Shown: piece by piece, positions 5,490 to 19,532 of the stretch
How the letters are laid out: each line of letters begins with the position of its first letter
Numbering within the stretch: the first letter of the stretch is position 1
Assembly (NCBI GenBank): GCA_027486025.1
Contig: JAIXPY010000122.1
Span: forward strand, 1 to 36,228
Direction: 5' to 3'
From: Burkholderiaceae bacterium
GTDB lineage: Bacteria > Pseudomonadota > Gammaproteobacteria > Burkholderiales > Burkholderiaceae
DNA length: 36,228 nucleotides
Translations under genes and position numbers: made by a program
Notes under the pieces: model-generated
What the model saw: only the letters and a program-made list of their open reading frames with translations
Database searches by the model: none
Told to the model about the DNA's origin: nothing

Positions 5490-5517
5490 CGTGAATCCTT
5501 AGATAAAAGGATTCACG
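5490..5517. terminator. 11-bp hairpin between convergent rpoD and PIN toxin genes
   Basis: CGTGAATCCTT (5490-5500) - AGATAA - AAGGATTCACG (5507-5517), perfect stem; overlaps the last codons of the minus-strand toxin. No long T-tract on either side. Confidence 0.5.
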
Positions 5518-5903
5518 ATTTGCAGTCGTTTGTCGATGGTTTGGCGGTGTTGCATGTCTTCGGAATAGAGTCGCTCGCAACCTGCTTGCAGGGCAGCTGC
5601 AATAATCATGGAATCGTAGTGCTGATATCCATATCGTCGCGATACCATTAAGCCAGTTTCAAAGGTTTCAAGGTCCAGCGGCCGTACATTGAAGGTCGAT
5701 GTAAATAACTCTAAAAATACATCCAGTTCAGCATGCGTCAGTTTAATTTTTCTCAAGCTGGCCGATGTGAACTCATTTAGTACCTGAACACTAATCACAT
5801 TGGATTGCTGTAGATTGCGGCTTACCCAATTTGACTTATCCTCATCCGAGGAAAGAAGGTAAAGCAGGGCATTGGTATCAAAAAATATCTTCTTAGCGTT
5901 CAT
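5499..5903 (-). CDS. PIN domain ribonuclease toxin (VapC-like)
   Basis: 134 aa; FFDTNALLYLLSSDE, VLNEFTSASLRKI, YGYQHYDSMIIAAALQAGCERLYSEDMQH: PIN acidic-residue pattern; downstream of an AbrB-like ORF. Confidence 0.9.
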   Translation of the reverse strand: MNAKKIFFDTNALLYLLSSDEDKSNWVSRNLQQSNVISVQVLNEFTSASLRKIKLTHAELDVFLELFTSTFNVRPLDLETFETGLMVSRRYGYQHYDSMIIAAALQAGCERLYSEDMQHRQTIDKRLQIVNPFI

Positions 5904-6123
5904 TCAGTTCAGATCGATCAAAGTGAAAATCGGCGGGCATGCGACCCCGGAATTTTCTCAGACCTTCAACCCTCTCTTGAAGGGATGGTTTCTTTTTCAC
6001 TTGAAAATGTTTTTTATCGGCGACATGGATTTCAATGTCATCGCCTTCCTTTAGCTTGAGGTATTCAACGACTTGAGCGGGCAGTCGTATGGCCAAGCTA
6101 TTTCCCCATTTTGATACGACCAT
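5893..6123 (-). CDS. AbrB/MazE-family antitoxin (VapB-like); start revised from 6153 to 6123
   Basis: MVVSKWGNSLAIRLPAQVVEYLKLKEGDDIEIHV is a SpoVT/AbrB-type motif; AGGAG upstream of the internal ATG; 4-nt-type overlap with the toxin. Confidence 0.85.
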   Translation of the reverse strand: MVVSKWGNSLAIRLPAQVVEYLKLKEGDDIEIHVADKKHFQVKKKPSLQERVEGLRKFRGRMPADFHFDRSELNER

Positions 6124-6145
6124 GGTCTTGTCTCCTGATAAATAG

Positions 6146-6167
6146 ATATACATATATTAATGTATAT
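6146..6167. promoter_or_regulatory. Candidate operator of the VapBC-like operon
   Basis: Inverted repeat ATATACAT-ATATTA-ATGTATAT just upstream of the antitoxin start. Confidence 0.55.
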
Positions 6168-6240: not shown

Positions 6241-6317
6241 GGGCCTATAGCTCAGTTGGTTAGAGCAGAGGACTCATAATCCTTTGGTCCCAGGTTCAAG
6301 TCCTGGTGGGCCCACCA
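6241..6317 (+). tRNA. tRNA with CAU anticodon, probably tRNA-Ile2 (lysidine-modified) rather than tRNA-Met
   Basis: 77-nt cloverleaf GGGCCUA-UA-GCUC...GAGC-A-GAGGA-CUCAUAA-UCCUU-UGGUC-CCAGG-UUCAAGU-CCUGG-UGGGCCC-ACCA. C4-G69 and C5-G68 and an Ile2-like variable region (UUGGUC) favour Ile2. Confidence 0.9.
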
Positions 6318-6604: not shown

Positions 6605-8062
6605 TTAGTCGCGATGGAACAAAAACTTTTTAATTTTTTGCGCCAAGGCTCCCATCAAGCGATGCTTTTCTTCGACCCGATCGGTATGACTGAGCGAAGT
6701 TTTAGTTTGTGCCATGCGTTGCGCGAGCAACTCAGCCATCTGCTCTACTAAGCGTAGATTGCTTTCCAAAATTGGTGAAATATCGTCTTTGCGGATTTCC
6801 AATAAAACACTCTCGGTGCGCGCGATCACTTGTGCGGAGCGTGGCTCACCGGTCATCAGGGACATTTCACCCACGCAACTGCCGGGCCACAAGGTTGCAA
6901 CCTTTACGAAGGTATTGGCCTCATTGGGCGCGCTCACATCAATTGTCCCTTCGATCAAAATAAACATCGAATCGGCTTTTTCTTGATAACGAATTACCGC
7001 ATCACCGGCTTTAAATCGCAGCATTGAAACCGTTTTAGCCAATTGATCAATTTCATGTTGATTAAGATCTTTCAGAATTCCGAATTCGCGCACGGCCAGC
7101 AAACGTTGCTTCACATAGTCGGTTGCGGTATTAGCTGGATAAATTTCTACGGTGTAATTAACATTTGCACCACTAGCTAGTAGGAAACGTATCGCGGCGC
7201 TATTCACAACGTGATTGGAGCGCGCTCGCGACAAGCAAGGGTGGCACTCGTATTTAATCTCGTAGATGTAAATACCAGATTTAATCTCGACAAGTAAGCA
7301 GTAATAAAACGAATTAAAGTTGGAATCGGTCTCAATCACCGATTGCATGGCCTGATCCAAAACTTCGAGTACTTGAGTGATCGGTGTGGTGTTGGTAATT
7401 TCAATGCGAATCTTACGCCGCACTCCTTTGGTATTGGGCTGCTTCGTAATGTTAATGTATTTGTAATTCAGAAACTCCCGATTAGGGATACGAACAAGGT
7501 GCTTGTCGACGTTAAGTAGCGTCACCATTTGATGATCAATTTGCACAACTTGAAAAAATTCAGACGGGGAGGCATCGGTGACCTCAATCCAATCATTGAT
7601 ACTCACAAGCCCCTCAAGTTGCAATTGAATGCTCGCCATAATATTGGCAATCATTTCACGAAAAGCATAGGCAAGAGCTACTACGACCATGCCTGAAGCA
7701 GCAATCAAGTTGGTAAAAGATTTGTCGTAGACCACCACGTAGACTAATAGACCAACTAATGCATAAGCAACAATTGTCACAATTTGGACCAGGATTGCTG
7801 AGATTTGATGTGCCGGATTGCGACGATTAAAAAAAACCACAAGACTACGAATGCTCATGTCGAGTGTTACTGCAAATAAAATTACCTGAAAAATGGCTAT
7901 GATTTCAATAATCTGAGGCTTAAAAATATTATGAAATTCGCCAGCCTCCAATCCCCATGGCGTGCCACTTTCTTGATGGATCCAGTACAGTAAGCCAAAA
8001 TTTGCCAAAACAAGTAGGCTATATAAAGCCGGCGGTAGATAAAACAACTGAAATCTATTCAT
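6605..8062 (-). CDS. MscS-family mechanosensitive channel fused to a C-terminal cyclic-nucleotide-binding domain
   Basis: 485 aa; N-terminal TM segments, MscS-like core (AYAFREMIANIMASIQLQLEGLVSINDWIEV), C-terminal cNMP fold (FKAGDAVIRYQEKADSMFILIEGTIDVS...PGSCVGEMSLMTGEPRSAQVIARTES). Confidence 0.9.
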   Translation of the reverse strand: MNRFQLFYLPPALYSLLVLANFGLLYWIHQESGTPWGLEAGEFHNIFKPQIIEIIAIFQVILFAVTLDMSIRSLVVFFNRRNPAHQISAILVQIVTIVAYALVGLLVYVVVYDKSFTNLIAASGMVVVALAYAFREMIANIMASIQLQLEGLVSINDWIEVTDASPSEFFQVVQIDHQMVTLLNVDKHLVRIPNREFLNYKYINITKQPNTKGVRRKIRIEITNTTPITQVLEVLDQAMQSVIETDSNFNSFYYCLLVEIKSGIYIYEIKYECHPCLSRARSNHVVNSAAIRFLLASGANVNYTVEIYPANTATDYVKQRLLAVREFGILKDLNQHEIDQLAKTVSMLRFKAGDAVIRYQEKADSMFILIEGTIDVSAPNEANTFVKVATLWPGSCVGEMSLMTGEPRSAQVIARTESVLLEIRKDDISPILESNLRLVEQMAELLAQRMAQTKTSLSHTDRVEEKHRLMGALAQKIKKFLFHRD

Positions 8063-8359
8063 TATTTATTGTGACTTATTAGTGGCAGTGTGAAGGTTTA
8101 TACATTATTAACTAATTTTGTTTATGCATTCAGTCTTATAGCTTTGGCTCTTTTATATGTAAATAAGAGCGGTAATAAAACATTGTCATATTACAAATTA
8201 ATTTTGATTAGCATATCAAAATTTAGCTTCTTAGAGACTAATATTGGGTTAATGTACAAAGCATATTTCAAGCTAACGCCGAGCCAAGCTTTAGCTTGAA
8301 AGTGCTGTTGAAGGTCTAGAGACTAGACGGCACCCATCTAAGTTGAGCAATCAATATGA

Positions 8360-8483
8360 TGAAGGCATAGTCCAGGGAGTTGTGAAAGCAAGACAAACCG
8401 GAATCCTTTGGTCCCAGGTTCAAGTCCTGGTGCTCATCAGCAATGGTGGGGGTTTTGTCTTTTGAGCGTTGCTTAAAGTAACG
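8360..8483 (+). repeat. Repeat module A: TGAAGGCATAG + degenerate tRNA + T-rich segment + palindromic tail
   Basis: TGAAGGCATAG as directly upstream of the tRNA; 31 nt AATCCTTTGGTCCCAGGTTCAAGTCCTGGTG (8402-8432) identical to tRNA 6278-6308; then CATCAGCAATGGTGGGGGTTTTGTCTTTTGAGCGTTGCTTAAAGTAACG. Near-copy at 11209-11354. Confidence 0.85.
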
Positions 8484-8651
8484 GTCACTGCAAATATTGA
8501 GCCTATTTGTGTTCAGGGAAGTAAACTTATATTGGAGGTCGAGGCTCACGATGAGGTGGACGTCATTTCGCGAGGCAGATATGAAAGAATGATTATTAAT
8601 AAAGAGCAGTTTGAAGAACGTATGCGATCAAAATTGATTTGCTCTCAATAA
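8469..8651 (+). CDS. Short hypothetical protein or gene remnant
   Basis: 60 aa ORF (LKVTVTANIEPICVQGSKLILEVEAHDEVDVISRGRYERMIINKEQFEERMRSKLICSQ), plausible composition; start lies inside the repeat tail. Confidence 0.35.
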   Translation: MLKVTVTANIEPICVQGSKLILEVEAHDEVDVISRGRYERMIINKEQFEERMRSKLICSQ

Positions 8652-8727
8652 ATTCGTGAGGCTCGCTTAATATTTGTTGTGCCCATATATGAAAAAGAGT
8701 GAAAGAGTGAAAGAGTAAAAAGAACAC

Positions 8728-10368
8728 ATGGAATTCGAAATACCAGAAACCCTGGCCAATACGCTACTTGGAACGATCAATGAGGATTCTCTGCTTGCTA
8801 GGCGGCTGAGGGAGTACGGCCTTTCCCGAGGCAAACGTGTGGTGCCCAGCCGCCTTTTCGATGCCGACTCACTTAACACACTCTATGACCTGTGCCGTAC
8901 AGCCAACGAGCGTGAGCTGTTGTTCCAAATGCTGGCGCTAGATAATATCCACTCTGCGCCGGCTGCCCGAAAAATTCCCAGCTTGGAGCATCTGATCCCC
9001 GGTCTGATCGCTTGGCTGTCGCGCGACATGATCGATGGCTGGCTTTATAAGCTCGGCAAGGACGGTGTGTTACAGCCTTGGTTGGTCCATTCTATGCGCC
9101 ATGTGCAGCCTGTCGATAGCGCAGCTTACGTCATCATCGGCCTGCTGGCCAATACATTGCAGGCTGCGGGACGGGGGCCGGTCGCCGATCCGAGGCTAAG
9201 GTATACCGCCATGACCAATAGCATTAGCTTTCATGCCGAGGATATTTTGGATTTCACGATTCCCGAATTGATGACGGGTCATGGTTACTTCAAAGAATGT
9301 ACAGAATTCAAAAATGAATACGAGACACACTCAAAGCGTTTCATGCAGATGCAGCCAAAGTTTGGTGCGCAGTTTACTGTTTCTGGCAATGTCTGGATGT
9401 CCAGCGAAGGGCCTCGTCCACAACTCGAATGCATGCGGCTGCAGGCAGGCACAACGGCGCGTTGCGTAAATGACGAAGAGCTGCTGGAACGTCACTTTGA
9501 CACCACCGCCGATGCAACCTTCTGGCGCGGAAGTGGTATCAGCGAGGGTTTTGAACGGATTCCCCAACATTGCTATCTACACCTATTCCACCTGGATTAC
9601 CACCGCAACATATGGGCGCATGTACAAAATGTAAGTGCGTATCGTTACAAGCCGGAATTGCGTGACAAGCTGGTTTTGCCGCATGCTCATCGCAACTTGA
9701 TTGATATCTTGACCGCTGATCGTAACTTCCTGATGGAGGACATTGTGGAGGGTAAGTCGGGAGGAACAACCATCCTGTGCAAAGGCGCGCCTGGCCTAGG
9801 TAAGACGCTGACAGCAGAGGTCTATGCTGAGGTCGTCGAGAAACCACTATACCGCGTGCATTCTGGTCAACTCGGCGTGACGGCAAGCTCAGTGGAAGCC
9901 AGCCTTTCGAAAATCCTGCGCCGCGCGGCGCGCTGGGATTCGGTGCTGTTGCTCGACGAGGCCGACGTCTACATTCGCCGCCGCGACAACGATCTCCAGC
10001 ACAACGCCATCGTGGCTGAGTTTTTGCGTACACTCGAGTACTTCAACGGCTTGCTATTCATGACCACGAACCGGGTAGCTGATATTGATGACGCCGTCCT
10101 GTCTCGTTGCATCGCCATCATTCAGTTTGAGACACCGACACAAGTGCAGGCGAAACAATTATGGAAATCGCTAGCGCAGCAGTTCAACATCGAATTGTCC
10201 GACGACCTGGTTGAGCATTTGATAGTAACCTATGCAGCTGCCAGCGGCCGCGATATCAAGGAGTTACTCAAGCTGACGCTCAAGTTTTGCAAGGGTAAGA
10301 ATTTGTTACTCAGCGAGGAAGCCTTTGCTCAGTGCGCGGCTTTCCGCAGTATCGGTAAACCCGTCTAA
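8728..10368 (+). CDS. AAA+ ATPase (classical AAA domain at C-terminus, unknown ~300 aa N-terminal region)
   Basis: Walker A KGAPGLGKTLTAE; Walker B SVLLLDEADVYIRRR; sensor-1 LLFMTTNR; second-region-of-homology DIDDAVLSRCIAI. Confidence 0.9.
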   Translation: MEFEIPETLANTLLGTINEDSLLARRLREYGLSRGKRVVPSRLFDADSLNTLYDLCRTANERELLFQMLALDNIHSAPAARKIPSLEHLIPGLIAWLSRDMIDGWLYKLGKDGVLQPWLVHSMRHVQPVDSAAYVIIGLLANTLQAAGRGPVADPRLRYTAMTNSISFHAEDILDFTIPELMTGHGYFKECTEFKNEYETHSKRFMQMQPKFGAQFTVSGNVWMSSEGPRPQLECMRLQAGTTARCVNDEELLERHFDTTADATFWRGSGISEGFERIPQHCYLHLFHLDYHRNIWAHVQNVSAYRYKPELRDKLVLPHAHRNLIDILTADRNFLMEDIVEGKSGGTTILCKGAPGLGKTLTAEVYAEVVEKPLYRVHSGQLGVTASSVEASLSKILRRAARWDSVLLLDEADVYIRRRDNDLQHNAIVAEFLRTLEYFNGLLFMTTNRVADIDDAVLSRCIAIIQFETPTQVQAKQLWKSLAQQFNIELSDDLVEHLIVTYAAASGRDIKELLKLTLKFCKGKNLLLSEEAFAQCAAFRSIGKPV

Positions 10369-10369
10369 G

Positions 10370-11086
10370 ATGGCAACGTTTGACACGTCTTTCCTAGGAG
10401 GTTCGCTGCTGGGCCGGCTCAGTTTTCGACCCGGCACTGTACCCGACAAACCAGCTTTGCCCGCTGGTCGTCACAACCTGGGTATTGCTAGCGAGCGCGA
10501 CGCCGTATTGATCGTGCCGGATGGTCTGCAGCCTGGAGTTCCAGTCGCTTTGCTCGTGATGTTTCATGGTGCCGGTGGTAGCGCCGACAAGGTGCTGCCA
10601 TTCTTGATCGACTATGCGTGTCAGCGTGGCTTTTTGCTTCTGCTGCCGCAGTCTCAGTTTCCAACTTGGGACTTGGTCGTGGGCGGTAACGGCCCAGACC
10701 TGGAGCGGCTAGACAAAGCATTACACGAAGTGGCATCACGTTTTTCAATCAATCCATTCTATTTGGGATTTGCTGGCTTTTCGGACGGAGGCAGCTATGC
10801 GCTGTCAGCAGGCGTGACCAATGGCGACATTGTTAGCCACGTGATCGCATTTTCCGCAGGCTTCATGTCAGTCTTTCAGCAAAACGGTCTCCCCCGCATT
10901 TTCATCGCCCACGGTTTGCAAGACGAGCAGCTGCCGATTGAAACTAGTGCGCGTCTTCACGTAGCCAAACTTAAGGCCGCAGGTTATGACGTAACCTCCT
11001 TGGAATTCAGAGGTCCGCACCACATCGAGCCGCCAGTGGTTGCATTGGCAATTGATTTCTTCCTGAAACCGACGGCGCAGCCGTAA
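10370..11086 (+). CDS. Alpha/beta-hydrolase (phospholipase/carboxylesterase or dienelactone-hydrolase-like); start revised from 10325
   Basis: HGAGG oxyanion motif, GFSDGGS nucleophile elbow, HGLQDEQLP acid, GPHHIEP histidine; ATG 1 nt after the AAA+ stop. Confidence 0.88.
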   Translation: MATFDTSFLGGSLLGRLSFRPGTVPDKPALPAGRHNLGIASERDAVLIVPDGLQPGVPVALLVMFHGAGGSADKVLPFLIDYACQRGFLLLLPQSQFPTWDLVVGGNGPDLERLDKALHEVASRFSINPFYLGFAGFSDGGSYALSAGVTNGDIVSHVIAFSAGFMSVFQQNGLPRIFIAHGLQDEQLPIETSARLHVAKLKAAGYDVTSLEFRGPHHIEPPVVALAIDFFLKPTAQP

Positions 11087-11208
11087 CAAGTCAGGCCTCG
11101 GAGTAGTAATAGATCGTGCTAATAATTTGACTATAGAGTACATGGGAGTGCGGTCATTTTTAGGGGATGTGCGCCAAAGTGTTGCTTGGAAAATAACGCT
11201 AAATTTGG

Positions 11209-11354
11209 TGAAGGCATAGTCCAGGCAGTTGAGAAAGCAACACAAACTGGAATCCTTTGGTCGCAGGTTCAAGTCCTGGTGGGCCCACCAGAAAAGCAAA
11301 CCCTCATCAGCAATGGTGGGGGTTTTGTTTTTTTGAGCGTTACTTTAAGTAACG
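11209..11354 (+). repeat. Repeat module B: degenerate tRNA + palindromic tail (near-copy of module A)
   Basis: TGAAGGCATAGTCCAGGCAGTTGAGAAAGCAACACAAACTGG, then 40 nt matching tRNA 6278-6317 with one mismatch (11251-11290), CTCATCAGCAATGGTGGGGGTTTTG, GAGCGTTACTTTAAGTAACG. Confidence 0.87.
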
Positions 11355-11368
11355 ATTAGTATCGTTGG

Positions 11369-11623: not shown

Positions 11624-12027
11624 TTTGATCTCCTAGGGTAGGGTTATTAGATCCTATGCCCATATTGCTGTAATAGCAAATTTCCATATCCTATAACTTG
11701 GGGCTTTTCGGGCGCTAAGCCATTTTCAGTAGTAGTTCGGGGTTTTGTCCTTGAAATGTTGCATTAAGTAAGACGCATTCAAAATCGTTATTAAAGGTAA
11801 AGATTTCAAAAATCTAAAGTATTTTGAGAAGGAAAAATAGTTAGCAATACCTAAGCGAGAGTCGAGTAAATTATGATGAAGATATTTCACCCTTTACTGA
11901 ATAAATAGGGTAGTATGGATGTAGTGATTTTCAAGCAAATAGTGTTGTTGTACTAGTAATTAATACCGCAGTTCTGCGATAGTTCTTCTTAGCATCTCCC
12001 CCGCCATTCTTGACTTTCGCCCTACTT

Positions 12028-12057
12028 GGGGCATAGCCCCTTTTTAATTTTTTTAAG
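12028..12057 (+). promoter_or_regulatory. Terminator-like hairpin plus T-tract in the csp leader
   Basis: GGGGC-ATA-GCCCC (12028-12040) followed by TTTTTAATTTTTTT, ending about 15 nt before the csp ATG. Confidence 0.6.
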
Positions 12058-12069
12058 GAATAGTCAGAT

Positions 12070-12273
12070 ATGGCAAACGGAATTGTGAAATGGTTTAACG
12101 ACGCTAAAGGCTTCGGCTTTATTACCCCTGATCTTGGTGGCGATGATTTGTTCGCTCATTTTTCAGCAATTAATAGCAATGGATTTAAATCGCTAGCTGA
12201 AGGTCAAGCGGTTACTTTTGATATTGCTACAGGCCCTAAAGGCAAGTTAGCATCCAATATTCAACCTGCTTAA
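12070..12273 (+). CDS. Cold-shock protein (CspA family)
   Basis: 67 aa; [34 protein letters not shown] with RNP motifs. Confidence 0.96.
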
Positions 12274-12314
12274 ATAAGAAGCAAATACCAGGCTTAAATT
12301 ATTTTGCCTGGCCT

Positions 12315-12348
12315 AAAGCCCAGCATGTCTGGGCTTTTTCATTTTTAT
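12315..12348 (+). terminator. Rho-independent terminator or attenuator between csp and infA
   Basis: AAAGCCCAG-CATGT-CTGGGCTTT followed by TTCATTTTT, about 12-20 nt upstream of the infA ATG. Confidence 0.75.
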
Positions 12349-12360
12349 TAAGGATGCAAA

Positions 12361-12621
12361 ATGGCAAAAGAAGAATTACTTGAAATGGAAGGTCTTGTTG
12401 ATGAAATTCTGCCGGATTCTCGTTATCGGATTACTTTAGACAATGGCCATAAGCTCATTGCCTATACAGCAGGAAGGGTCAAAAAAAATCACATCCGTAT
12501 ATTGGCTGGAGATAAGGTTTCTTTGGAGATATCCACTTATGACTTGAGCAAAGGTCGTATCACATTTAGACATCTTGAGAAGAAGCAATCGTTTGCTGGT
12601 TCGCCGAAAAGACGATATTGA
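12361..12621 (+). CDS. infA: Translation initiation factor IF-1
   Basis: 86 aa; [70 protein letters not shown] is a recognisable IF-1 S1-like fold sequence. Confidence 0.92.
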
Positions 12622-12699
12622 TCTTTAAAGTTTAAATCGCAAGTTAAATTAATTTTTGCAAGGAGACTCAGACTCTGGTCGATTCGGCCCTGGGCCGCC

Positions 12700-12810
12700 C
12701 ACTCATTAAGCGTTAGTTTAAGTAACGCTTATCTCCTTAAAACCACTTTGGAGCAACGAAGTGCTAAACAGTTGCTCCAAAAATCCTGTGGTTTTGAAAA
12801 CTAACGAGTG
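12700..12810. repeat. Nested inverted-repeat element (about 110 nt)
   Basis: CACTC/GAGTG, CGTTAGTTT/AAACTAACG, AAAACCAC/GTGGTTTT, TTTGGAGCAAC/GTTGCTCCAAA nested in order around a 13-nt loop. Confidence 0.8.
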
Positions 12811-13003
12811 AGGGAGCATTTCTCAAATGATGTGTTATTTCACTATGTAAAGTACTACACGCCGATAATGAGGCGACGTAAGCTCTTGAAACATAGCGGT
12901 TTTGTCTTTTGAGTGCCGCTTTAAGTAACGGTTGTGTGGGTGTTTTCCCCTTGTTTTATTTAGTTCTATTTAAAACGCCAAAACCATTAAATTTCTACAG
13001 GGT

Positions 13004-13037
13004 TTGACATTGGTCAATATATGTACTATATTAGTAC
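13004..13037 (+). promoter_or_regulatory. Sigma-70 promoter with overlapping palindromic operator for the MarR gene
   Basis: TTGACA (13004-13009) - 17 nt - TATATT (13027-13032); palindrome GTACTA-TAT-TAGTAC (13023-13037) covers the -10. Confidence 0.75.
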
Positions 13038-13041
13038 GCAT

Positions 13042-13461
13042 ATGAACTTTTTACCTATCGTTAAAGAGCTTGCTAGAACCTATCAAGAATTTGAGGCCTA
13101 CTCTTCCGCCCACATTCGCGGCTTGGGTCTATTGCCAGTCCAGTTCGATGTGATTGCCACTCTAGCCAATCAGCCGCCAATGACCTATAAGCAATTGGGT
13201 GAAAAAACCTTGATTTCTAAGAGCTCTCTTACTGGCGTAGTTGAGCGCATGGTTCAAAAAGGTTTTATCACAATCCTAGAGAACCCTGATGATGCTCGCA
13301 GTCATCTGCTCAAGTTAACAGTTAAGGGCCAAAATATTTTCGAAAAAGCTTTTCCAGGGCATCTTGAGCATCTTGAGTTGGCTTTTAAGAAGCTATCAAA
13401 AAGTCAAATGAAAGAAGTTGAAGAATCACTCAAAACACTTAAATCCATCTTTATAAGCTAA
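13042..13461 (+). CDS. MarR-family transcriptional regulator (start revised from 13021)
   Basis: Winged-helix MarR motif (PMTYKQLGEKTLISKSSLTGVVERMVQKGFI...NPDDARSHLLKLTVKGQ); the 13021 ATG lies inside the promoter. Confidence 0.92.
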   Translation: MNFLPIVKELARTYQEFEAYSSAHIRGLGLLPVQFDVIATLANQPPMTYKQLGEKTLISKSSLTGVVERMVQKGFITILENPDDARSHLLKLTVKGQNIFEKAFPGHLEHLELAFKKLSKSQMKEVEESLKTLKSIFIS

Positions 13462-13738: not shown

Positions 13739-14149
13739 ATGACAAGCTTTGAAAACAGTTTCAATTTCCTGGGCCGAATTGCGATTGCGGCATTGTTTCT
13801 ACCAGCAGGCGTCAATAAGTTAATGGGTGTTGAGGGTACAACAGGCTATTTCGCATCTCTTGGATTGCCCGCTGTAGTTGTATTGGTTTGGGTGGTTATT
13901 GCCATCGAAATTTTAGGCGGCCTTGCTTTAATTCTTGGCTACCATACTCGCGTTGTCGCAATTGGTTTGGCACTTTTCACCTTGTTGGCCAGTATTGCTG
14001 GTCACGCATTCTGGGCAGCACCCGCGGATGCCGCATTTATTGCTCAGCTGTTGTTCTTTAAGAACATCGCCGTGATTGGTGGTTTGTTGGTATTAGCCTC
14101 ATGCGGCGCCGGTAAATTCAGTATCGATGGCTTCCAGCAATCAAATTAA
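13739..14149 (+). CDS. DoxX-family membrane protein (start revised from 13724)
   Basis: Four hydrophobic segments; RIAIAALFLPAGVNKLMG...LEILGGLALILGYHTR; AAAGGACAAAAC SD before 13739. Confidence 0.85.
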   Translation: MTSFENSFNFLGRIAIAALFLPAGVNKLMGVEGTTGYFASLGLPAVVVLVWVVIAIEILGGLALILGYHTRVVAIGLALFTLLASIAGHAFWAAPADAAFIAQLLFFKNIAVIGGLLVLASCGAGKFSIDGFQQSN

Positions 14150-16650: not shown

Positions 16651-16701
16651 ATGAGCGTTACTTTAAGTAACGCTCATTACCGGTAATGAGCGAATTTTTT
16701 T
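16651..16701. terminator. Two overlapping perfect palindromes, the second with a T-tract (terminator of dadA)
   Basis: ATGAGCGTTACTT-T-AAGTAACGCTCAT (16651-16677) and CGCTCATTACCGGTAATGAGCG (16671-16692) + AATTTTTTT; they share CGCTCAT. Confidence 0.8.
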
Positions 16702-16875: not shown

Positions 16876-17029
16876 CACCGCCTCCGTTTGGTTTAATTAA
16901 ACTATAACGGCGTCTATTAGACTGTGGGTAGTCCACCTTAACAAAGTGTCTGTAAAACCGGGTTTAGCTCAATCCTGGAAAATGGGCGCTAGCGTATTAA
17001 TGATTGAGTGGCACTATAGCCATTTATAG

Positions 17030-17152
17030 GTAATACAGGCTATTGAACAATTGTGTGGGGCAAATCCTAAAAAGCAAATTGAGGCTGATAGTAGGGCGGG
17101 TGACATTTATCCCAGCAAAAAGCGGGCTCAAAAACAGCAATTGGCTGCTTAG
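17030..17152 (+). pseudogene. Possible C-terminal gene fragment
   Basis: Open frame without credible start: VIQAIEQLCGANPKKQIEADSRAGDIYPSKKRAQKQQLAA*. Confidence 0.3.
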
Positions 17153-18101: not shown

Positions 18102-18241
18102 CCTGGGCAGTCCCGGCGGATGACGCATTTATAGCTCAGCTTTTGTTCTTTAAGAACATTGCAGTCACCGGCGGTTTATTGATGCTAGCTTCATCGGGCG
18201 CTGGCTTTATTAGCTTCGATAGCCTCAGGGCTAAAGGATAG
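18102..18241 (+). pseudogene. 3' fragment of a DoxX-like gene (paralogue of 13739-14149)
   Basis: WAVPADDAFIAQLLFFKNIAVTGGLLMLASSGAGFISFDS vs FWAAPADAAFIAQLLFFKNIAVIGGLLVLASCGAGKFSIDG in the intact DoxX. Confidence 0.85.
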
Positions 18242-18825: not shown

Positions 18826-18838
18826 TGGATGGTTGATC

Positions 18839-18868
18839 TCAGGCTCAAGTTCTGGTGGGTGCACCAAC
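18839..18868 (+). repeat. Degenerate tRNA 3' end
   Basis: CTCAGGCTCAAGTTCTGGTGGGTGCACCAA resembles tRNA CCCAGGTTCAAGTCCTGGTGGGCCCACCAA. Confidence 0.6.
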
Positions 18869-19532
18869 AAAATCAGGTGTGTACCGGACGCATGCTTTAC
18901 ACATCTACTTTTGCTTCCCCAGCACCTAGGGGCCTTATGGGTTTTATAGGCCAATACCAATAGATTATCGTATTTGAGTATTGAGGAACTGGTATCACCT
19001 AGTTACCGTTGCCACCTGGAGTAGATTGGTTTCGGGGGGCATTCAAACAGCATCTAGTTGCGTCATGAAAAGTAGTAAGGATTTTGTGGGAATACTATTT
19101 CTTACGTCATCCATAACTTAAAATTATGTAAGAAAGTACAGATTTTTATGTGAGACGGCATCTGAATTCTCATTTAAAAATCGTACATATAGACGATTTA
19201 ACGTATTTTGAGCAAGCGTAATATAGCTAATGCAGTCTTAATTAGATAAATTCACCACCCACTTTATTGATTATCTTTGGCAATCAGCGCTGATTCAAGC
19301 CGGGTTTAATCGCAAAACAGCTTCCTCCAATCAAAAACTTTTTTAATCTATAACTTTATATATTGATTTTGCTCAGCACGGAGTAGGTTTGTAGGATCGC
19401 CGCCATTTTAGGCTGGTAAAGTAAAAAATCCTGAATCGATTGCAGTTTAGAAGCATAGGGGACATGGCTTTGCTGGCTGAATAATAAAGATCGTTATTAT
19501 CTTAATTCGGTCATTTTATGAGCTCATGCATG

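Follow-up and report, generated by a model that had tools for sequence, protein, structure and literature searches.

An AAA ATPase and esterase gene pair carried as a cassette of an intron-bearing tRNA(CAU) island in Polynucleobacter

Why should an AAA ATPase gene and an esterase gene, one nucleotide apart, lie between two broken copies of a tRNA 3′ end, and do their products belong together? The question is raised by a contig of 36,228 nucleotides (the window, meaning the whole stretch that was analyzed) from a freshwater metagenome-assembled genome (MAG; 1.87 Mb in 206 contigs, 85% complete), which is assigned to Polynucleobacter because a near-identical locus is found in that genus. The order in the window is dnaG, rpoD, tRNA(CAU), an mscS-like gene, a left module, ATPase, esterase, and a right module that runs to about 11357 (Table 1). 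We are confident of the core of the answer: the ATPase and the esterase are a conserved partner pair kept by selection, and in Polynucleobacter they are a cassette of a CAU-tRNA island 3′ of rpoD. The fuller explanation, a two-gene accessory cassette with a specified route of island formation and an action of the ATPase on the esterase, we hold at a probability of roughly 0.5. The pair fits no named system, and no account of it was found in the open literature that was searched.

Distribution and arrangement of the pair

Among the 151 Polynucleobacter genomes sampled, the ATPase occurs in 15; these genomes also have the esterase, of which one further fragment was found at the edge of a contig. 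In a sample of 250 genomes of the family as defined by GTDB, each gene is present in 53, and the genomes listed for the two coincide. The order-wide sample is sparser: the esterase is found in 3 of 280 genomes, all with a close ATPase, and in none of the other 277, and 18 genomes carry a distant ATPase (36–55% identical where it matches) and lack the esterase. A genome search also failed to find the esterase in three Actinobacteria that carry the ATPase. Moreover, the arrangement of the two genes varies between lineages. The ATPase comes first in Polynucleobacter and in Polaromonas and Variovorax (Comamonadaceae), the esterase comes first in Paraburkholderia and the other Burkholderia-type genera of the family, and the two are convergent in Keguizhuia. 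In Oxalobacteraceae and Rhodocyclaceae they are unlinked, and in 17 of the 19 betaproteobacterial cases without an adjacent esterase, the esterase gene was located at another site in the genome. Distances between ATPases correlate with distances between esterases at r = 0.96 overall and at 0.89 among nine unlinked genomes, and purifying selection acts on the two genes (median omega 0.09 for the ATPase and 0.13 for the esterase). Since the pair appears in several gene orders, is retained when unlinked, and yields matching genome lists, it is therefore best regarded as one functional unit, and the question posed by the preliminary description of this DNA, whether the pair is conserved in distant genomes, can be answered in the affirmative far beyond the genus.

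Three considerations weigh against this view of the pair: the check for unlinked esterases covered 27 genomes that had been picked for having the ATPase, the mirror-tree correlation of the unlinked genomes is confounded by species relatedness, and co-occurrence in linked lineages follows in part from linkage itself. The last of these is the strength of the suggestion that two unrelated accessory genes share an island and are conserved together by linkage only, which is just what would be expected within linked lineages. We nevertheless think that suggestion very improbable, as it is already disfavored by three relative gene arrangements together with unlinked co-presence, and also by the finding that none of the 277 order-wide genomes lacking a close ATPase has the esterase. 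The degree of mobility differs from genus to genus. In the genus that we label g4, most comparisons find homology in the flanks up to 4 kb from the pair, and in g3 most do not; thus, the pair is core-like in one genus (g4) and mobile in others.

The tRNA island and its intron-bearing repeats

The modules that bracket the pair had been described as near-identical, with a tRNA 3′ end, and had been called a pseudo-tRNA repeat. The likeness and the tRNA 3′ end stand: the modules share two direct repeats, one of 80 nt at 91% identity (D5, 8353–8432 and 11202–11281) and one of 31 nt at 97% (D6, 8433–8463 and 11303–11333), both far beyond chance, and both modules hold tRNA 3′ exon. The label does not stand and gives way to a 3′ fragment of a group I intron joined to a tRNA 3′ exon; the left edge also shifts, the upstream module beginning further left, at about 8272. 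The exon part of the left relic is 8402–8432, its acceptor end lost, and that of the right relic is 11251–11290, with one substitution. Both modules lack the 5′ part of the intron and neither is a complete group I intron; the left relic alone gives no Rfam match because that part is missing. A tandem tRNA duplication was considered and rejected, since the 5′ part of the module is intron and not tRNA.

The complete form is seen in genome G456, where a whole tRNA gene, interrupted by a ~220-nt intron, lies directly 5′ of the ATPase; its 5′ exon ends GGACTCATA and its 3′ exon reads ATCCTTTGG...CCACCA. This intact copy (7882–8107 of locus L130) matches the Rfam group I intron family RF00028 at 58.3 bits against a gathering threshold of 50. 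The near relative Polynucleobacter Kol15 (L013) is organized likewise, its intron being 216 nt long, and intact copies with introns of about 215 nt are present in sister strains, some of them directly 5′ of the pair. Twelve intact introns can be aligned over their full length. Compensatory changes occur in several stems, P9 among them, and 15 of the 85 predicted pairs show one or more double changes. The intact copies would presumably be able to self-splice. A comparable case among betaproteobacterial tRNAs is the pre-tRNA-Ile of Azoarcus BH72, which has a small group I intron (class IC3) named in a review (PMC3984707). The Polynucleobacter intron differs in occurring in multiple, frequently truncated copies and in its association with an island hot spot. 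The interrupted Azoarcus tRNA also has the anticodon CAU, and the core sequences are presumably very alike, the Azoarcus intron being the obvious candidate for a relative. For group I introns at the integrase attachment sites of bacterial tRNA islands, no account was found in the open literature searched.

Across the genus this is a recurrent structure. Relatives of the 401-bp left module are present in 138 of the 151 genomes, usually several per genome, and the typical layout 3′ of rpoD is a lone 5′ exon, then some 160–200 bp, then a full intron-bearing tRNA. Each of the 16 Polynucleobacter copies examined has a CAU tRNA 3′ end or relic on its upstream side, mostly no more than 0.5 kb away, although that at the chromosomal copy of G473 is very decayed; just downstream, a tRNA relic follows in 11 of the 16. 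The downstream relic in G408, G435, and G475 looks, by eye, like that of another tRNA (tRNA-Phe-like). Integrase-family genes fall, by coordinates, within several such regions (G470, G504, and G435), and the Kol15 island has an integrase at 11956–13320 of L013 (PHROG 1, 1.7e-31). A second copy of the pair was noted in G473 on a small separate contig (C2, 23.6 kb; L143 / L020), with intron relics on both sides. In the window, a further degenerate tRNA(CAU) 3′ end at 18827–18871 is the probable far edge of the island. We also noted a dispersed palindrome, GAGCGTTACTTTAAGTAACGCTC, at 11334–11357, 12707–12737, and 16651–16682, and again in L013 and G472; it is often near the terminators of tRNA relics and is possibly a genus-wide repeat.

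The region is a tRNA-associated additive island, in that the genes behind the tRNA vary and copies of its 3′ end recur. The additive islands and tycheposons of Methylophilaceae and Prochlorococcus likewise place variable cassettes behind a tRNA, with recurring tRNA 3′ ends and, as in the Kol15 island, a tyrosine recombinase; in Methylophilaceae the repeated 3′ ends mark the islands, one of which starts at tRNA-Met(cat) (PMC10872708). The island type is thus already known from that work, and it is the intron component that is unusual: in Polynucleobacter, pieces of a group I intron form part of the repeats, and whole tRNA genes interrupted by the intron are found repeatedly in the islands. For the ATPase-esterase cassette, no unit of transposon size that brings its own recombinase was delimited.

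That the pair reached this site by transfer, as the preliminary description had held, is borne out by three lines of comparison. First, the window and Kol15 share the unit at 96.4% nucleotide identity, whereas their core blocks yqeY, dnaG, and rpoD are only 65–79% identical; the shared block ends on the left inside the intron relic and on the right at the end of the 3′ exon. For most species pairs, homology to the window is limited to the two genes, at about 8700–11090. Second, in an ATPase tree of 50 rows built with IQ-TREE, the Polynucleobacter sequences group as a single clade whose sister is Polaromonas (95/85). Both fall within the comamonad group (100/100), and the genera of the GTDB family to which Polynucleobacter belongs lie elsewhere in the tree. 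From this nesting we infer a transfer from a Polaromonas-like comamonad into Polynucleobacter. Third, the pair is conserved beyond the genus. Within Polynucleobacter the pair is accessory, being present in the 15 of 151 genomes noted above, and the GC content of the two genes is 0.53–0.55 against 0.39–0.42 in adjacent stretches of the window, which agrees with the earlier remark that the coding DNA is richer in GC than the spacers. Over all copies the genes range from 0.51 to 0.56.

How the island came about is the next question. The pair travels as a cassette bounded by tRNA 3′ ends, to which the 3′ part of the intron is often joined. In our reading the island would grow at an intron-bearing tRNA gene by repeated tyrosine-integrase insertion, by recombination between tRNA/intron copies, or by both; intact introns would self-splice and so keep the tRNA usable. 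We consider this account probable. It must be set against the more ordinary possibility that these are the att repeats of integrated elements and that the intron is incidental. Integrases that target tRNA genes typically leave repeated tRNA 3′ ends behind, and such ends mark the Methylophilaceae islands (PMC10872708), but many strains have several intron-bearing copies per genome, and the relics hold intron and not exon alone; hence, we regard the incidental intron as unlikely, though it deserves real weight. Our reading of the cassette also has its own difficulties. The left edge of the 96.4% block lies in the intron and not at the exon; the upstream relic is 1.9–3.4 kb away in 4 of the 16 copies (G411, G469, G435, and G440); no relic was recognized just downstream in 5 of the 16; and the window contains a remnant but no intact integrase, so that mobility of the cassette has to be deduced from comparison. 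As for the empty site that a comparison of strains might reveal, only a partial one was found: G472, which lacks the pair at that place, is homologous from the tRNA-Phe-like relic onward, matching the right flank, and its left flank finds no match.

What the ATPase may do for the esterase

The first protein of the pair is a classical AAA ATPase by the Pfam profile (PF00004, 57.4 bits against a gathering threshold of 21.2), with invariant Walker motifs and a TTNR...SRC region, and its AlphaFold model has a pLDDT of 87. The intact Walker A and B motifs and the uncharacterized N-terminal region of about 300 aa were correctly described beforehand: the N-terminal region has no meaningful match in the PDB, and the only structure matches fall on the AAA module (Msp1 and proteasomal ATPases). 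By profile, the nearest relatives of that module are Rix7 and p97. A resemblance to a eukaryotic or fungal AAA core, which had been noted beforehand, gains some support from predicted giant-virus ATPases, which match a larger part of the model (best TM-score 0.60–0.64 by query length). With the classical remodelers Rix7, p97, and Msp1 the protein shares the AAA core and the conserved motifs, but it has another N-terminal region and no aromatic pore-loop-1 motif. At that position the alignment reads HSGQLG(V/I/T)(T/S)A where Rix7 has ELLNKYVGE, and the aromatic-hydrophobic-Gly signature of a threading AAA unfoldase is absent from it. Because this canonical loop is missing in the alignment, classical substrate threading appears doubtful. 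A homologue that is 46% identical and spans 91% of the ATPase, with most of the N-terminal region covered, is the Bacillus jumbo phage protein AR9/PBS1 gp082 (PHROG 29662). It differs in having no esterase annotated nearby and in its name, “ATP-dependent protease,” a function that is not supported here, the ATPase of the window having no protease domain.

The second protein, whose ATG starts one nucleotide after the ATPase stop codon, is an alpha/beta hydrolase esterase with a GxSxG motif, an Asp and a His, and a fold that matches LC-Est1 and other esterases. The triad S138, D185, and H217 is unchanged in 18 homologues, so the catalytic-triad hydrolase of the preliminary description is upheld. 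No named subfamily scores above its cut-off (PF02230, 22.2 against 23; PRK11460, 34.9 against 191), and no signal peptide is evident in the sequence.

Taken together, these features suggest that the ATPase would be a ring-forming remodeler dedicated to the esterase, spending ATP to activate, assemble, or recycle the cytosolic enzyme (or its acyl-enzyme), and would not thread substrates into a protease. We infer such an activase tentatively, at somewhat less than even odds. The reading draws support from the neighbors of other ATPase clades, because these adjoin other enzymes: a distant clade (L009, L011, L012, L227, L229, and L231) lies beside GST, in L011 and L012 also beside a NafY-type dinitrogenase FeMo-cofactor protein, and the relative in the three Actinobacteria adjoins an intradiol dioxygenase. 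Counting against it is the moderate confidence of the predicted esterase model (pLDDT 70). Other neighborhoods are less telling. On plasmids (L064, L066, and L067; Methylibium, Xanthomonas, and Citrobacter) the order is a protein of about 150 aa, the ATPase, then proteins of about 105 and 250 aa, with no Pfam family for those neighbors tested, and in Herminiimonas the neighbors give no functional hint, being exbB (by Pfam) and genes that read from the sequence as exbD-, lpxK-, kdsB-, and adk-like.

The two proteins might instead serve one metabolic or envelope pathway, such as turnover of ester-substituted metabolites connected with periplasmic glucans, and never touch, the ATPase handling another protein. 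The unlinked esterase of Oxalobacteraceae lies directly after an MdoG-family (opgG/opgD) gene, with opgG/opgD-type neighbors in L210–L213 and L218, and that of a Rhodocyclaceae MAG lies just before one; that the genes can be unlinked at all also suits this idea. No MdoG-family neighbor was seen in Comamonadaceae, Burkholderiaceae, or Polynucleobacter, however, and the glucans are periplasmic, yet the esterase has no evident signal peptide. We rate the pathway as rather unlikely, and of the envelope or lipid role once proposed for the locus only the weak hint from the Oxalobacteraceae neighbors survives.

A defense role had also been proposed, and an anti-phage module of AAA sensor and esterase effector would suit a patchy distribution in Polynucleobacter (15 of 151) and a variable island, the more so as the Kol15 island also holds a SoFic gene, a PADLOC family, and the AAA core is weakly similar to IetA and TRIP13. 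But the PADLOC and NCBIfam similarities are generic to AAA, the PADLOC matches covering only the AAA core and none the esterase; the flanks are syntenic over 4 kb across g4; the genes are chromosomal and unlinked in Oxalobacteraceae; and ATPase relatives occur in phages and plasmids. Defense is accordingly improbable in our judgment. Membership of a known anti-phage system was rejected, since the two genes do not match the components of any one system in PADLOC or NCBIfam, and so was membership of IetAS (IetA equivalog, 42.6 bits against a cut-off of 510). IetAS is an AAA ATPase with a protease, IetS being a subtilase; it has the same AAA core and a two-gene operon but a different partner, which here is an esterase.

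Window layout and significance

The coordinates are collected in Table 1. The tRNA at the head of the island is labeled Met by ARAGORN; we take it to resemble tRNA-Ile2(CAU), and it could be that tRNA. The mscS-like gene is probably a separate insertion, because Kol15 lacks it at that place.

Table 1. Features of the pair, its modules, and the surrounding island in the window.
Feature	Position	Strand	Basis
Intact intronless tRNA gene, anticodon CAU, island head 3′ of rpoD	6241..6317	+	ARAGORN (Met); Rfam RF00005 73.6 bits
MscS-type channel gene with cyclic-nucleotide domain, between intact tRNA and left intron relic	6605-8062	-	Domain search
Unit common to window and Polynucleobacter Kol15 (L013 7529-10567)	8269..11294	+	96.4% nt
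Left relic: group I intron 3′ part (last ~130 nt) and 31 nt of tRNA 3′ exon	8272..8432	+	80% to G456 intron-tRNA 124-288
Terminator-like hairpin and T-run after tRNA 3′ end, common to both modules	8433..8463	+	D6; terminator read by eye
Classical AAA ATPase, 546 aa; ~300-aa N-terminal region, then one AAA module	8728..10368	+	Pfam PF00004 2.7e-15
Walker A GAPGLGKT, residues 353-360	9784..9807	+	G353, G356, G358, K359, T360 invariant in alignments A1, A3
Walker B VLLLDE, residues 406-411 (LLLDEAD stretch)	9943..9960	+	D410/E411 invariant
Alpha/beta serine esterase, 238 aa	10370..11086	+	NCBIfam PRK11460 9.4e-9; PF02230 just under cut-off; LC-Est1 fold match
Catalytic codons: Ser138 (GFSDG); Asp185; His217	10781..10783; 10922-10924; 11018-11020	+	Invariant in alignment A2
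Right relic: last ~45 nt of group I intron and full tRNA 3′ exon	11202..11290	+	92% to G456 intron-tRNA 214-297
Decayed integrase gene 3′ end, 154 bp	16980..17133	+	79% nt to L013 integrase (11956-13320)

Several other features were noted. Between rpoD and the tRNA (5499–6153) is a PIN toxin with a MazE-type antitoxin, and Kol15 has a similar pair at the same place. Inside the island, a cold-shock-type gene at 11940–12340 has a leader like the cspA thermoregulator (37 bits, below gathering) and is followed by an extra gene for translation initiation factor IF-1 (12361–12621). The end of a DoxX-family gene is partially duplicated at 14011–14134 and 18103–18226 (124 nt, 76%).

It is rather unlikely that the ATPases form an unrecognized family of client-dedicated AAA activases, each clade with a different enzyme, with relatives on plasmids and in jumbo phages and with the esterase pair spreading through intron-tRNA islands. 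Whatever its role, the pair is widespread and selected, and as two genes in a short operon, naturally present or absent between strains, it is well suited to direct testing. The island, for its part, places a group I intron of the self-splicing type at an insertion hot spot for mobile elements. If the tRNA does stay usable through successive insertions thanks to the intron, this would help explain how such arrays persist in a small, streamlined genome.

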